Part shown: piece after piece, positions 35,637-43,545 of the stretch
How the letters are laid out: each line of letters begins with the position of its first letter
Position numbering within the stretch: position 1 is the stretch's first letter
Assembly (NCBI RefSeq): GCF_029635795.1
Contig: NZ_CP114280.1
Span: 1,178,001 to 1,242,000 of the forward strand
DNA: 64,000 nt
Direction: 5' to 3'
DNA from: Dickeya lacustris
GTDB taxonomy: Bacteria > Pseudomonadota > Gammaproteobacteria > Enterobacterales > Enterobacteriaceae
Notes under the pieces: model-generated
The model's database searches: none
What the model saw: only the letters and a program-made list of their open reading frames with translations
Told to the model about the DNA's origin: nothing
Program-made: the position numbers and the translations under genes

Positions 35637-36374
35637 ATGTACGCGATAACGTTTCCCGTCAATCGTAGGAGTTCGGATAAAAACCGCTTGCTGTCACCAG
35701 AAAACGGGGGGTATAGTTTTCCCGTTGCCGCAAAATCGGCAACCGGGCGTAGGAACCCGAAACGTTTACAGGCGACACCAGACGCGCCATGCGTCTTTTT
35801 TATTGTCGATGCTTTTGCACACCTATCGAAAATGGCTTTTTGCCATGCAGAATCAATGGTGGGCTGGGCAGGGCAGCCTTCGGGCTGGCCGGTTTCCTGT
35901 AACGCCGGTATTCCTACCCCTGCTCAGTCCACCACCCGCAGTGTAGGAACTCAGGTGGTGGGTATTTTACCCAGTTACAGGAGGCTACCTTTATGGTTGC
36001 GACCCCTACCCAAACTCACCCTGAATTTGTCTTTCTATTCCTGGCTGTACGCCGTTCAGATATTGATGCCGTACCACACCGTGAAAGCGTGGTGGCTCCC
36101 AATGAACAGTGTGCCCGCCGTTTACTGGCGCGTGATTATGTTCTTGCCTTTGCAGGGCGTTTGCCGGTTATCGGAGGTCGCCATGTTTGATGATACCCCG
36201 CTGGAACTGGATGAGGTGCTTGATCAATGTCGTGCGCTGGCCTATGCCCTGATTGAACTGGATCAGCTGGAAGTGCGAGAGATCCTGATATTTATTCTGG
36301 CTGAACGCCTGAACCTGTTATATCGCCTTAATGAATCCCCGGAGCCAGATAACCCGGAGGATACCTATGAATAA
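35637..36374 (+). CDS. Ash-family protein frame (may end functionally inside the Icd gene)
   Basis: The frame carries the Ash-family block S-P-E-N-G-G...V-A-A-K-S-A-T-G-R-R-N-P...A-T-P-D-A-P-C-V-F-F...S-M-V-G-W-A-G, found upstream of alpha-type primases in P4-like satellites. AGGAAGG precedes the ATG. The frame continues without stop through the Icd-like gene (another frame) and into the short MFDDTPLELDE gene, giving 245 residues. The first about 115 residues are the credible Ash part; whether the rest is translated as a fusion is uncertain. In P4 this segment also holds the immunity RNA, which could be here too, for example at the AACGGG/CCCGTT hairpin near 35702-35725. Confidence 0.5.
   Translation: MYAITFPVNRRSSDKNRLLSPENGGYSFPVAAKSATGRRNPKRLQATPDAPCVFFIVDAFAHLSKMAFCHAESMVGWAGQPSGWPVSCNAGIPTPAQSTTRSVGTQVVGILPSYRRLPLWLRPLPKLTLNLSFYSWLYAVQILMPYHTVKAWWLPMNSVPAVYWRVIMFLPLQGVCRLSEVAMFDDTPLELDEVLDQCRALAYALIELDQLEVREILIFILAERLNLLYRLNESPEPDNPEDTYE
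35993..36190 (+). CDS. Host cell division inhibitor Icd-like protein
   Basis: A 65-residue protein resembling the Icd-like family of P1/P4-type elements: T-Q-T-H-P-E-F-V-F-L-F-L-A-V-R-R-S-D near the start and A-R-R-L-L-A-R-D-Y-V-L-A-F-A-G-R-L-P-V at the end. Inhibition of host division is described for P1 Icd; it is inferred here. An AGGAGG lies upstream of the ATG. It overlaps the Ash frame entirely, in a different phase, and the next gene starts 8 bp before its end. Confidence 0.7.
   Translation: MVATPTQTHPEFVFLFLAVRRSDIDAVPHRESVVAPNEQCARRLLARDYVLAFAGRLPVIGGRHV
36183..36374 (+). CDS. Small satellite protein, uncharacterised
   Basis: A 63-residue acidic, leucine-rich protein (MFDDTPLELDEVLDQCRALA, then E-I-L-I-F-I-L-A-E-R-L-N-L-L-Y-R-L) with GGAGGTCGCC before the ATG, so it is probably translated on its own. 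It is in the same frame as the upstream Ash frame. Four-base-type overlaps with icd and the next gene indicate a tightly packed operon. Function unknown. Confidence 0.6.
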   Translation: MFDDTPLELDEVLDQCRALAYALIELDQLEVREILIFILAERLNLLYRLNESPEPDNPEDTYE

Positions 36375-39598: not shown

Positions 39599-39925
39599 AT
39601 GAGAGTAATGCGCGTGTATTGTCCTGAATGTAGTTCGCTGGCGGTGGTGCGAAAGACCAATCGCAAACATCCACAGATTGCCGATATCTACTGCGCCTGT
39701 AGCAATATGGAATGCGGTCACACGTTTGTGATGAACATGACCTTTTCACATACCTTAAGCCCCAGTGCGTTGACACATGGCCGACTGATGAAAAACATGA
39801 TTGATGCCATCGCACCAGACAAACGCCAGGAAATGATCGACCTGTTAAGCCAGGCACAGGATGACGACCAAAAGGTGAGTAGACCGCAAGGGCCGGTGAG
39901 CGCCACGGCGCAAAGTCGGCGCTGA
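39599..39925 (+). CDS. Ogr/Delta-type zinc-finger late transcription activator
   Basis: A 108-residue Ogr/Delta family protein. The zinc motif C-P-E-C (Cys8, Cys11) and C-S-N-M-E-C-G-H-T-F (about 33-42) is characteristic, as is R-K-T-N-R-K-H-P between. In P2/P4 these proteins bind upstream of late promoters with RNA polymerase; in satellites they let the element activate its own and helper late genes. GGTGAGGAACTG precedes the ATG. Its presence points to a P2-like helper. Confidence 0.88.
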   Translation: MRVMRVYCPECSSLAVVRKTNRKHPQIADIYCACSNMECGHTFVMNMTFSHTLSPSALTHGRLMKNMIDAIAPDKRQEMIDLLSQAQDDDQKVSRPQGPVSATAQSRR

Positions 39926-40355
39926 TAGGCTCCTTGTCTCTGTGTTCTCACCGTTCACGTTTTTCAGTGTGCTGAATATTGCCATTCGCGTGTAAGCCGC
40001 ATCCGGCAAGGGATTGCCGGAGCGTTGGCTGGTTTTATCGTGATCCCTTCGTTGCCGAAAAATCCACGCAAAATAAAAAATATCCTTTCCAGTCATGTAG
40101 ATAATCTCCAATTTGTATGGTATTTCCCTTCCCCCAAAAAGCCTGAAAACTGAAAAATGCTGAAATGTGTTTCAATCATTTCAGTCGGGCTGTGTACGCT
40201 GATAGCCCAGGCACCGCACGGGCTGGCGCTATGGTTTGTAGAAAAGGAAAACTGAAAAATTTCATGACTACGAAAACCGCAGGCGGGTGCGGTGTAGTGC
40301 CGATTTTGTCTGTTTCAGGTTTTTTTAAATGAAAAACAGTAGTATTCTTTTGTTC
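39926..40355. other. Gene-free region between ogr and the SLATT-RT unit; possible cos region
   Basis: No gene is visible. Structures seen: an 8-bp stem TCCGGCAA/TTGCCGGA at 40002-40021, an 8-bp stem CTGAAATG/CATTTCAG at 40160-40184, and a G-rich stretch at about 40283-40318 (GGCGGGTGCGGTG, then GTGCCGATTTTGT and TTTCAG) that recalls the P2/P4 cos sequence from memory. A cos site here would match P4 organisation, but this is unproven. Confidence 0.35.
40343..40348 (+). promoter_or_regulatory. Possible -10 element for the candidate RNA / SLATT-RT transcript
   Basis: TATTCT lies 8 bp before the first base of the closing stem at 40356; it matches four of six bases of TATAAT. The -35 region is only T-rich (around 40320-40326), so the promoter is tentative. 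Confidence 0.3.
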
Positions 40356-40472
40356 GAGACGTATCGCTTTGCGATCATCCAGCCTGCTGGGTGCAACTAA
40401 TTTTGGGAGGCTTGTCCTCTAGTTCTACTAGTCTGTTTACAGGCGTTACACGATTACTACCTAAGGCGTCTC
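40356..40472 (+). ncRNA. Candidate structured ncRNA upstream of SLATT-RT
   Basis: About 117 nt that can fold into a closed multi-branched RNA. GAGACG (40356-40361) pairs with CGTCTC (40467-40472). Inside are consecutive hairpins: ATCGC/GCGAT (40363-40375), ATCCAG/CTGGGT (40377-40392), GAGG/CCTC (40407-40419), TAG/CTA (40420-40430) and TCTG/CAGG (40432-40443), then about 22 unpaired nt before the closing strand. It ends 19 nt before the SLATT start and has no reading frame of its own. Several defence RT families use an ncRNA encoded next to the RT as template, so this may be the cognate template or a leader. Structure was drawn by eye; no covariation was tested. Confidence 0.42.
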
Positions 40473-40491
40473 ACTCTTTTAAGGACTAATA

Positions 40492-41055
40492 ATGACTAAT
40501 GCTTTCTCTGATAAAATATGGTGGACGCGTAAGGCTAAAATTAAATCTGAGCGTAGACTGTTGAATTTGGATTATTACTCTCAATTTTTATTACTTTGGT
40601 ATTCTTCTTTTTTAGTATCTTACTCGATTTATTCACTTGTGAAGCCTCCAACTAATGATAATGAATCAGTTATTATGGTCGCTTTATCTGTGTTAATTCT
40701 TGCGCTTACCCTATTCATCAATAATATGAATTATAAAGGGCGGGCGATGCTTATTAAACAATGTTATGAAAAGCTTAGTGTAATACACACAACCTCCCTA
40801 AGTTGTGAAAATGTTATTGAGTTAGATAAAGAGTATCAATCAATACTGGCAGCATCAGAAAATCATCTTGAAAGAGACTTCATCAAAGCAATAGTTGATG
40901 AGTATAGTAATACTAGCGATAAAACACTATTAACTAAGACTCCATCTTACTGGCATAAAATTCAAGTTTGGTTTTACATTTTTCGTAATGTGACTGTTTT
41001 TATATTACTATTTATTTTCCCTTTTGTGATTTTAATCTCTTTGCGAGGGGCTTAA
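40492..41055 (+). CDS. SLATT-domain membrane protein (predicted defence effector)
   Basis: A 187-residue membrane protein with the look of a SLATT domain: charged N-terminus (W-T-R-K-A-K-I-K-S-E-R-R-L-L), helix 1 about 27-49, helix 2 about 60-78, a central cytoplasmic helical region with K-E-Y-Q-S-I-L, and a C-terminal hydrophobic helix about 160-183. SLATT proteins are predicted pore-forming effectors of anti-phage systems, and comparative work has linked some to reverse transcriptases. The stop codon overlaps the RT start (TAATG), so the two are translationally coupled. The gene is very AT-rich compared with its flanks, a sign of transfer. Confidence 0.75.
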   Translation: MTNAFSDKIWWTRKAKIKSERRLLNLDYYSQFLLLWYSSFLVSYSIYSLVKPPTNDNESVIMVALSVLILALTLFINNMNYKGRAMLIKQCYEKLSVIHTTSLSCENVIELDKEYQSILAASENHLERDFIKAIVDEYSNTSDKTLLTKTPSYWHKIQVWFYIFRNVTVFILLFIFPFVILISLRGA

Positions 41056-42389
41056 TGAGTGCATTTGATGTTTTTAAAAAACACTTTAGAACTAAAAACC
41101 TCCAAAGAATTTATAAAGATGTTGTGTCTTTATCCTCTGCCTGTGGTGTGGATAATATGACACATGAGGTATTTTTGAGATTTCAAAAAGAAGAAATAAA
41201 AACAATTCGGCGAAAATGTCTTGCTGGGAATTATAAGTTTAATAAATACAAATTAAAACTTATTAGTAAAGGTAGAGGAAAAGCCCCTAGGGAAATATCT
41301 ATACCTACTATACGAGATAAGATTGCATTTCGCGCAATTTGTGATTTTTTACAAGAAGTTTATCAAGAAAATTTAGTCTTTGATTTACCACAAAATATGG
41401 TTTTAAGTCTAAAAAACGTCATGAGTGAAAATAAATATAATTACTTCATGAAATTTGACGTGGCTAATTTTTACCCTTCAGTGATTCATGATAAATTAAT
41501 AAGTAGACTACGAGCAAAAATTCGAGATGAGCGAATATTATCTTTGATACAAAGTGCTATTAGCTCAGCAACAGTATCTAAACCAAAACATGATGATTTG
41601 CTTTCAGAGCGAGGAGTCCCACAAGGATTATCGATTTCCAATATACTTGCGGCTATTTATTTACTAAATATTGATAACCATTTTCGTAATAATCCGGGGG
41701 TTAAATATTATAGATATGTCGATGATATAATGATTCTTTGTGACTCATCAGTTGCTCCAACGATAACGGATAGTCTGATATCTCGCTTCAGACGCTTGGG
41801 GCTAAATATTTACGATCCTAGAAAAAATCCAGAAAAATCTAGTGTTGGCTATCTGAATAGGGATGAGTTCGGATATTTAGGGTATTATTTTCTCGGCAAG
41901 AAAATTACGGCTAGAAAAGGGTCTGTTGAGAATCTACGGGAGTCGCTATTAGCTATATTTACAGGTTATAAGCACTCGAAACTAAAGAATCCTAAATTTT
42001 TAGAGTGGCGAATTAATTTAAGGGTTACAGGTTGTATATTTCTAAATAAATCAAAAGGGTGGATGTACTTCTTTTCAGAGATTGAAGATGAAGTTTTGCT
42101 ACATGAATTAGATGCTTTTTTGGAAAGGTTATGTAAAAGATTTTGTGTTAATTTAAAGTTAAAGTCGTTTGTGAGAACTTTTTATCAGATTAAGCATAAT
42201 CGACGTGAGACTAATTACATTCCCAATTTCGATAAGTATGACTTAGATCAAAAAGCATACGTATTGACTCATTATTTTAATAAAAGCGTGAAAAATATGG
42301 AGGATGAAGAAATTGAGTATCATTTTAATAAAAGAATATCTAGGCAAGTCAAAGATATTGAAACTGATGTTAAAGATGCTGGTTATTAA
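41055..42389 (+). CDS. Defence-type reverse transcriptase (UG/DRT-like), SLATT-associated
   Basis: A 444-residue reverse transcriptase. Motif order: R-E-I-S-I-P-T-I-R-D-K (domain 1), M-K-F-D-V-A-N-F-Y-P-S (motif A, about 131-141), E-R-G-V-P-Q-G-L-S-I-S-N (motif B, about 190-201), Y-Y-R-Y-V-D-D-I-M-I-L (motif C, about 217-227), F-G-Y-L-G-Y-Y-F (motif E). After about residue 290 comes a helical, basic C-terminal region with no maturase X/En domain, and no intron structure surrounds it, which argues against a group II intron. Retron hallmarks N-A-x-x-H and V-T-G were not found. AT-rich and coupled to SLATT. It most likely belongs to the unknown-group defence RTs; the exact class cannot be set by eye. 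Confidence 0.8.
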   Translation: MSAFDVFKKHFRTKNLQRIYKDVVSLSSACGVDNMTHEVFLRFQKEEIKTIRRKCLAGNYKFNKYKLKLISKGRGKAPREISIPTIRDKIAFRAICDFLQEVYQENLVFDLPQNMVLSLKNVMSENKYNYFMKFDVANFYPSVIHDKLISRLRAKIRDERILSLIQSAISSATVSKPKHDDLLSERGVPQGLSISNILAAIYLLNIDNHFRNNPGVKYYRYVDDIMILCDSSVAPTITDSLISRFRRLGLNIYDPRKNPEKSSVGYLNRDEFGYLGYYFLGKKITARKGSVENLRESLLAIFTGYKHSKLKNPKFLEWRINLRVTGCIFLNKSKGWMYFFSEIEDEVLLHELDAFLERLCKRFCVNLKLKSFVRTFYQIKHNRRETNYIPNFDKYDLDQKAYVLTHYFNKSVKNMEDEEIEYHFNKRISRQVKDIETDVKDAGY

Positions 42390-43545
42390 TAAAATCAGAA
42401 TACCAACGCAGCATTCTGCTACGGCCTTCTAAATACTGCGCATGATTATAAGTTCCACGGATGGAGTTTTTATCAACATGCGCAAGCTGCATTTCAATCC
42501 ATGCGCTGTTAAATCCGTGTTCATGCAAAATCGTACTCATGGTGTGGCGAAAACCATGACCGGTTAAACGTCCGTGATAACCCAGGTTTTTTATCACTTT
42601 GTTGATAGTGGCATCGCTTATCGGTTTTCTGGTGTCGTTTCTTCCTGGGAAAACGAATTCATAGTAACCGGTTAGTGTCTTTAACTCTTTCAGGATAGCG
42701 ATTGCCTGTGTAGACAGCGGCACCAGGTGCGGGCGTCGTTTTTTCATGCGCTCTTTCGGGATTTCCCACAACGCATTATCTAAATCAAATTCACCCCATT
42801 TTGCGGCACGCAGTTCAATGGTTCTTACGCCGGTCAGCATCAAAAGCTGTGTGGCGTATTTAGTTATCTTACTGCCGGTGTAATTGTTTAGCGCAGCGAC
42901 AAACTCAGGTAGCTCACTTTCGGTCAGGAACGGGAAGTGTTGGCTTTGAGGCTTATTCATGGCGCTGGCTAGATCAGGTGCCGGGTTGTACCTTGTACGT
43001 CCGGTCACGACCGCATAGCGGAAGACTTCACCACACCGGCGGCGGATCTTGCTGGCTTGCTCTAATGCCCCGCGTTTTTCGATTTTTTGCAGAACAGCCA
43101 AGAGTTCAAGTGGCGTGATTTGGTCTATCGGGCGTTTACCCAGGAACGGAAAAACTTCCTTTTCCAAATAGCGTATCACTTCTTTGGCATACCCTTCTGA
43201 CCAGGTTGATAGTTTCGAAGCGTGCCATTCTCTTGCTATGGCCTCGAAGGTATTTTCTGTAGAGAACTGAAGCGACAATTTTTCCGACCTGCGGGCATCG
43301 CTGGGGTTGATGCCGTTGGCTAACATCGCTTTAGCTTCATCTCGCTTCTTCCGCGCTTCAGCAAGGGATATGTTGTCATAGGTGCCAAACGAAATGAGCT
43401 TTGGCTTTCCGGCAAACCGGTAGCGGAAACGCCAGCCTTTAGTACCGGTGCTGTCGATCAGTAAAGACAGCCCATTGCCGTCGTTGAGGGTATAGGGTTT
43501 ATCCTGGGGTTTGGCCTTTTTGATTTTGATGTCAGTCAGCAACAT
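42370..43545 (-). CDS. int: P4-type tyrosine integrase
   Basis: A 391-residue tyrosine recombinase with the DUF4102 N-terminal arm-binding domain (L-T-D-I-K-I-K-K-A-K-P...L-N-D-G-N-G-L-S-L-L-I) and catalytic residues in T-G-V-R-T-I-E-L-R, H-G-F-R-H-T and the final Y-N-H-A-Q-Y. It would insert the element at the 3' end of the tRNA-Arg gene about 160 bp away and, with AlpA, excise it. It converges on the RT gene with a 20-bp overlap of their ends. Its GC content is higher than that of the cargo. Confidence 0.93.
   Translation of the reverse strand: MLLTDIKIKKAKPQDKPYTLNDGNGLSLLIDSTGTKGWRFRYRFAGKPKLISFGTYDNISLAEARKKRDEAKAMLANGINPSDARRSEKLSLQFSTENTFEAIAREWHASKLSTWSEGYAKEVIRYLEKEVFPFLGKRPIDQITPLELLAVLQKIEKRGALEQASKIRRRCGEVFRYAVVTGRTRYNPAPDLASAMNKPQSQHFPFLTESELPEFVAALNNYTGSKITKYATQLLMLTGVRTIELRAAKWGEFDLDNALWEIPKERMKKRRPHLVPLSTQAIAILKELKTLTGYYEFVFPGRNDTRKPISDATINKVIKNLGYHGRLTGHGFRHTMSTILHEHGFNSAWIEMQLAHVDKNSIRGTYNHAQYLEGRSRMLRWYSDFINNQHL

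Follow-up and report, generated by a model that had tools for sequence, protein, structure and literature searches.

The locus raises the question of what is encoded in the noncoding stretch directly upstream of a SLATT-reverse transcriptase (RT) gene pair. The window, meaning the whole 64,000-nucleotide stretch of Dickeya lacustris DNA that was analysed, places this pair in a P4-like satellite. The noncoding segment very probably encodes a structured template RNA for an anti-phage RT of the DRT10 (UG17) type. The first-pass annotation had already proposed a template RNA of a defence RT, and homology together with comparative structure now supports DRT10 as its class. As described in a preprint by Tang et al. 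from October 2025 (PMC12632851), DRT10 consists of a UG17 RT, a SLATT protein and an upstream ncRNA. Among the top entries that the literature search covered, this is the one paper describing DRT10 together with its ncRNA. RIP-seq in that study places the ncRNA upstream of SLATT, and RIP-seq together with mutants identifies it as the cDNA template (PMC12632851). The pairing of UG17 with SLATT_5 was noted earlier, SLATT_5 being reported beside 82% of UG17 RTs in the UG17 passages of PMC8934634, and a DRT3 preprint also cites DRT10 (PMC13174585, in excerpt). The elements of the locus, by window position, are:

39599-39925: Ogr/Delta gene, the upstream neighbour of the module.
40343-40348, + strand: -10-like TATTCT, a putative promoter element of the ncRNA and operon, 7 nt before the first paired base.
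40355-40473, + strand: predicted DRT10 ncRNA core (model positions 1-119, the core ends being the model ends), scoring 135.7 bits and E 3.8e-36 with R1, a covariance model built from seven loci of which the window is one.
40492-41055, + strand: SLATT_5 membrane protein gene, putative effector (187 aa; Pfam PF18160, 2e-21; PADLOC RTasSLATT, 1.8e-55).
41055-42389, + strand: UG17 (DRT10) RT gene (444 aa; PADLOC RT_UG17, 6.6e-160; Pfam RVT_1, 5.3e-24).
42370-43545, strand opposite to the RT: integrase gene, downstream, its 3' end overlapping the RT end.

The RT belongs to UG17 by a wide margin, the next specific PADLOC class being Drt3a (7.7e-33). DRT9 (UG28) was rejected for the window, as the Drt9 model reaches 6.3e-15 against 6.6e-160 for UG17 and the loop has no U run. 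DRT3 (Drt3a plus Drt3b) was rejected as well, the RT being single, with the SLATT gene before it and the integrase after it. The window RT has YVDD at residues 221-224 and ends in Tyr444. The priming residue is Ser456 in Eco3DRT10 and likely Tyr444 in Eco1DRT10 (PMC12632851). Across 129 full-length RT sequences (120 listed proteins, the window's own included, plus 12 chosen loci, minus three short ones), YVDD is present in 128. Of the 129, 81 end in Tyr and 44 in Ser, 125 together, and in the remaining four a Ser, Thr or Tyr is found among the final three residues; this C-terminal count leaves out L011, L012, L018, L019 and L020, more distant loci without a terminal Tyr or Ser, and also L009, L010, L021 and L027, which do end in Tyr or Ser.

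Some relatives depart from the common protein layout. L016 and L017 have Phe at the Tyr444 position, and the protein extends to a Ser-Ser end that keeps a terminal hydroxyl. The RTs of L018, L019 and L020 are UG17-like and have other C-terminal ends (DEGEIYPK in L018 and L019); tblastn gives no SLATT match at these loci. L009-L012 encode longer proteins (541-684 aa; RT_UG17 5.5e-97 to 7.0e-111) with no SLATT or ncRNA match, and are perhaps a different RT class. L043 and L048 lie on one viral contig where the ncRNA is a full model match; the RT looks frame-shifted, since its UG17 matches fall in two frames.

The SLATT-RT module is placed between the Ogr/Delta gene and the integrase of the satellite, with a tRNA-Arg next beyond the integrase. 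This site is the kind of P4-satellite defence hotspot that the hotspot passages of PMC9122126 describe. The same module, at ~76% DNA identity, occurs in five of 5,426 complete E. coli genomes. The two carriers inspected have a P2-type capsid gene, DUF927 and Ogr/Delta on one side and the integrase and tRNA-Arg on the other. The E. coli search matched 473 genomes; the 468 besides the five carriers cover <80% of the query, and the 15 listed among them match the left flank only. A second search (492 genomes matched) gives the left flank only in 29 of 30 rows spread over its matches. In the rows listed, the flank common to other E. coli stops at 40308-40327, just 5' of the -10 element, and the RNA is therefore part of the cargo. 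Inside this common flank, at 40286-40302, lies a terminator-like hairpin followed by T's, which may insulate the cargo from upstream transcription. Three E. coli elements (L058-L060) carry other genes in the same hotspot: a Shedu nuclease, a DprA and HAD-like pair, and unnamed proteins. A transposase gene of the IS3 family interrupts Ogr/Delta in L058. Upstream in the window's element, Rfam identifies C4 antisense RNA, an a1/b1 target and isrK at 35711-35939. C4 is the immunity RNA of P4-like elements. A search for an attachment site gave no second copy within the window of the 24-nt stretch at the tRNA end.

By comparison with its relatives, 40355-40473 is a conserved structured RNA. A closing stem encloses five hairpins and an open loop of 22 nt. 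The first-pass annotation had described a segment at 40356-40472 closed by GAGACG and CGTCTC, and these coordinates hold letter for letter. The five hairpins that it drew are conserved as the same helices. It had also seen no reading frame here, and the + strand indeed has no long one: an ATG frame of 23 aa (40329-40400) and a GTG frame of 32 aa (40391-40489) are all it holds. The spacing of 19 nt to the SLATT gene that it gave is likewise exact (40473-40491, ATG at 40492), the gap being 18-19 nt with the stem end at 40472.

At E <= 1e-60, genomes with an RT_UG17 match number 5 of 392 in the family, 10 of 394 in the order, 2 of 369 in the class and 3 of 398 in the phylum, each count including the window's own genome. 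Family searches with RT_UG17 give 10 of 178 genomes in another family, 2 of 86 in a third, and 1 of 2, 1 of 7, 2 of 70 and 1 of 4 genomes in four genera. A protein search at E <= 1e-30 gives 120 proteins among the matches listed, of 1743, from 8000 candidates scored. A scan of genome contigs with the single RT returns two relatives only, and the whole-genome family searches yield more. The first viral scan has no relative and a viral scan with an alignment has 11 loci; phage records contain no RT relative at E <= 1e-20. For plasmids, a near-DNA search for the module has no match, and a protein search finds eight plasmid records.

R1 gives 26 matches at E <= 1 in 358,385 bases, covering 48 of 57 sources, and all 26 are immediately 5' of SLATT genes; of these, 10 either belong to the model or have the same score as a member, and the weakest match overall is L024 (E 0.43). 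Outside this search are L005, L014, L017, L046, L047, L048 and L054 (copies or near copies) and L025 and L041 (fragments). A match is present in 25 of the 26 searched sources whose RT is at least 49% identical, and the remaining one, L053, has none because a contig end cuts off its upstream DNA. In the window's own genome (4.37 Mb) the window RNA is the sole R1 match at E <= 10, with scores computed for 150 of 215 first-look candidates. Where RTs are 29-38% identical (19 loci), model R2 finds the RNA in six at E <= 0.017, namely L024 (itself in the model), L036, L034, L023, L035 and L015, and the RNA models have no match in the other 13. In 28 sequences delimited by eye, the RNA ends ~8-23 nt before the approximate SLATT start. 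A DNA pattern search of viral contigs gave seven stretches. Three of them, L040, L042 and L044, have no RT or SLATT match and were rejected, the weak R2 match of L042 (E 0.17) being taken as chance.

Folding of the single sequence is, on its own, weak evidence for structure. The 117-nt segment has z = -2.13, with 4 of 200 shuffles folding as well, and a 144-nt segment has z = -1.10, with 32 of 200. The minimum-energy fold keeps SL1, SL2 and SL4 and swaps SL3 and SL5 for a long-range pairing. Comparative evidence in the form of covariation is strong, and at the level of aligned sequences it settles the question of structure. In alignment A3 (seven close RNAs aligned with MAFFT, and a hand-written structure of 33 pairs), 96.1% of cells are paired and 10 of the 33 pairs have changes on both sides. 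The mean for shuffles is 2.2, none of 500 reaches the observed count, and slid controls give 0-1. Further pair types, one of the five measures, barely exceed the shuffles (55 of 500 reach the value). RNAalifold on A3, unaided, returns the same six helices with both-side changes in 8 of 32 pairs; in its consensus the loop's last base alone is paired, extending the closing stem. Alignment A4 comprises the 26 R1 matches (22 distinct sequences) and has 95.6% of cells paired and both-side changes in 26 of 33 pairs, a result that leans towards structure because the alignment is fitted to it; the shuffled mean is 19.1, 0 of 500 shuffles reach the count, and slid controls give 6-10. The covariation among SLATT-RT relatives to which the first-pass annotation had looked for support is thus present, and it extends to the compensatory changes expected in the closing stem. 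The parts of the RNA are:

40356-40361 with 40467-40472, + strand: closing stem P1 (GAGACG with CGTCTC); both-side changes in 1 of 6 pairs in A3 and 5 of 6 in A4; one pair, AU in the window, is GC in all six other A3 sequences.
40363-40375, + strand: SL1 (ATCGC-TTT-GCGAT); both-side changes in 3 of 5 pairs in A3 and 5 of 5 in A4.
40376-40393, + strand: SL2 (CATCCAG....CTGGGTG); both-side changes in 4 of 7 pairs in A4.
40396-40401, + strand: linker ACTAAT, before SL3; invariant in 10 of 10 sequences of alignment A1.
40406-40420, + strand: SL3 (GGAGGC...CCTCT); both-side changes in 4 of 6 pairs in A4.
40421-40429, + strand: SL4 (core of CTAGT/ACTAG); both-side changes in 3 of 3 pairs in A4.
40431-40444, + strand: SL5, directly 5' of the template loop; both-side changes in 5 of 6 pairs in A4.
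40445-40466, + strand: template loop GTTACACGATTACTACCTAAGG, unpaired in the structure used.
40446-40457, + strand: A-B-A' (A, TTAC, 40446-40449; B, ACGA, 40450-40453; A', TTAC, 40454-40457).

DRT10 copies A-B and re-anneals at A', and the A-B-A' arrangement governs the tandem repeats (PMC12632851). SL5 is likely the 5' template boundary element, its position matching that of the boundary stem-loop SL5 in the same study. The loop reads G-TTAC-ACGA-TTAC-TACCTAAGG, and the predicted cDNA repeat is therefore 5'-TCGTGTAA-3' (8 nt). This unit was not seen in the DRT10 text that the analysis covered. Two places had been suggested for the template in the first-pass annotation. The stretch GATTACTACC (40452-40461) does lie in the template loop and holds A', but A-B begins 6 nt earlier, at 40446. 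The CTAGT/ACTAG hairpin corresponds to SL4 and is a structural element, judging by its conservation.

Repeats in the loop were measured by the longest one with its first copy beginning within the loop's first four bases, a start rule chosen by the analysts. The mean is 4.06 nt over 18 distinct A4 loops, which are not independent trials because the sequences are related. Letter shuffles of the loops have a mean of 2.68 and a highest value of 3.39, and 0 of 2000 are as high as the observed mean. Shuffles keeping the first five bases have a mean of 3.01 (0 of 2000 as high). Swapping heads between loci gives 3.48 (1 of 2000 as high), and this control is the weakest because the relatives have common TTAC/TTAA heads. 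A is TTAC, TAAC, TTA, TCA and similar across relatives, with A' copying A. Of the 18 distinct loops, 16 begin GTTA and two GTTC; the template loop is called poorly conserved in PMC12632851. The relatives' predicted repeat units, as parsed by script, are 5 to 11 nt long.

The RNA sits in the 5' leader of the SLATT gene, 18-19 nt ahead of its start, and might be a leader, attenuator or riboswitch controlling SLATT-RT in cis rather than an RT template, the alternative that the first-pass annotation had raised. RNA and mRNA are probably one primary transcript, since no terminator-like site lies between the RNA and the gene. The same lack of a terminator-like site after the loop speaks against an attenuator, as does the position of the AAGGA ribosome site outside the RNA fold. 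A riboswitch is not suggested by Rfam 15, which has no family at the locus at the gathering threshold, nor within 40200-40700 at E <= 1. All occurrences of the fold in the searched DNA precede SLATT genes, the loop keeps A-B-A' repeats that a leader would not need, and published work has shown homologues to serve as templates bound by the RT (PMC12632851). Control in cis is thus very improbable as the function of this RNA. The TATTCT at 40343-40348 had been proposed as a -10 element. Its position relative to the first paired base is as described, and the scoring script preferred the overlapping TAGTAT (40340-40345) as the window's best hexamer. In 18 of 25 loci the best -10-like hexamer lies 5-14 nt upstream of where the model begins, a count that includes several close relatives and has no control, and a promoter scan of 40150-40620 gave no two-hexamer sigma-70 site. 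The -10 element before the RNA is suggestive only.

A different choice concerns the register in which a DRT10 ncRNA would be copied here. The loop contains several short repeats, and the template could also be read as AC-ACGATT-AC (40448-40457), which shifts the phase of the 8-nt tandem repeat but leaves the repeat itself unchanged, or as TAC...TAC (40447-40460), giving an 11-nt unit. Eco1DRT10 has a 2-nt A/A' and a cryptic re-annealing site within B (PMC12632851). The E. coli relative L013 has a 444-aa RT with a Tyr end and the same ACACGATTAC stretch, and is the sole type reached by DNA searches of the 5,426 complete E. coli genomes. If Eco1DRT10 is of the L013 type, this would be consistent with AC-ACGATT-AC, the cryptic site being ACAC. 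The TTAC-TTAC pair is nevertheless the longest match in the loop, under a rule that allowed the first four start positions only, and another register appears rather unlikely.

In the preferred reading, 40355-40473 encodes the noncoding RNA that a DRT10 system, carried as cargo of a P4-like satellite hotspot, uses as template for repeat synthesis of the published type. Confidence in it is high and covers both the part read from the DNA itself and the part carried over from published DRT10; the effector step is graded separately. By analogy with published DRT10, the RT would bind the RNA, start DNA synthesis on its own C-terminal hydroxyl (Tyr444) and copy TTACACGA as far as the SL5 boundary. 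By slippage, the new GTAA end would re-pair with the downstream TTAC and the cycle would repeat. The product would be long single-stranded (TCGTGTAA)n attached to the RT. Exonuclease I (ExoI, SbcB) of the host might keep this DNA short, and infection might disturb the ExoI balance so that the DNA acts on SLATT, the cell is harmed and the phage is stopped; both of these last steps are uncertain.

The effector step can be read in two opposite ways. Tentatively, DRT10 may guard ExoI: the tandem-repeat DNA would be a SLATT-activating ligand that SbcB keeps too short or scarce, and a phage that blocks, titrates or outcompetes ExoI would trigger SLATT. According to the satellite passages of PMC9122126, sbcB is essential in an E. 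coli whose P4-like satellite carries an RT-SLATT pair. Excerpts of PMC12483538, which apparently refer to the same study, name the RT of that strain UG17 and read ExoI as mitigating toxicity; they also show a like ExoI balance for DRT9. ExoI digests in vitro-synthesized Eco3DRT10 cDNA (PMC12632851), and the word SbcB is absent from the main text of that paper. Its authors propose the inverse, that tandem-repeat cDNA holds SLATT inactive and that its loss on infection frees the toxicity. This is a plausible model, though short of probable; it is in line with the fall of Eco3DRT10 cDNA upon infection (PMC12632851), but it predicts that loss of a cDNA-degrading nuclease is harmless or protective, whereas sbcB is essential instead (PMC9122126 and PMC12483538, both in excerpt). 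The two models stand at about even odds, and the ExoI guard is taken as the working hypothesis. The activating-ligand reading joins the published essentiality of sbcB to the repeat product and contradicts the printed inhibitor model. The differing repeat units of the relatives are natural variants with which to ask whether SLATT reads the cDNA sequence or mere repetition.

The locus is, on well-supported grounds, a new member of DRT10 and not a new kind of system, because the DRT10 enzyme is already known for telomerase-like repeated DNA. At the sequence level, every DRT10 feature tested is present in the window. It shares with the published systems (PMC12632851) the UG17 RT clade, the adjoining SLATT gene, a conserved structured ncRNA placed 5' of SLATT, an A-B-A' arrangement in a loop behind a stem-loop, the catalytic YVDD, and a C-terminal Tyr like Y444 of Eco1DRT10. 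It differs in its own predicted 8-nt repeat unit and in having a closing stem with five hairpins, where the Eco3 RNA has, in the paper's wording, a central stem-loop and four smaller ones. The RT-SLATT system of E. coli H120 (Rousset et al., PMC9122126, compared by its description only, in excerpt) also has RT and SLATT in a P4-like satellite hotspot beside int, but its left neighbour is psu and that of the window is the Ogr/Delta gene. DRT9 (UG28; PMC12483538, in excerpt) resembles the window's system in its upstream ncRNA, protein-primed repetitive cDNA, ExoI-curbed toxicity and occasional SLATT, and differs in its poly-U template and poly-dA product, the window RT being UG17. In the published DRT10 model, a short template, alignment copy and boundary stem are also common to eukaryotic telomerase, which instead lengthens the ends of chromosomes, starting from a DNA primer; the window's system is not claimed as a member. 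The locus thus provides a real RT template RNA without an Rfam 15 family, found by tool-free reading of the sequence, and a new member, with a testable repeat unit, of a family proposed as a bacterial relative of telomerase.
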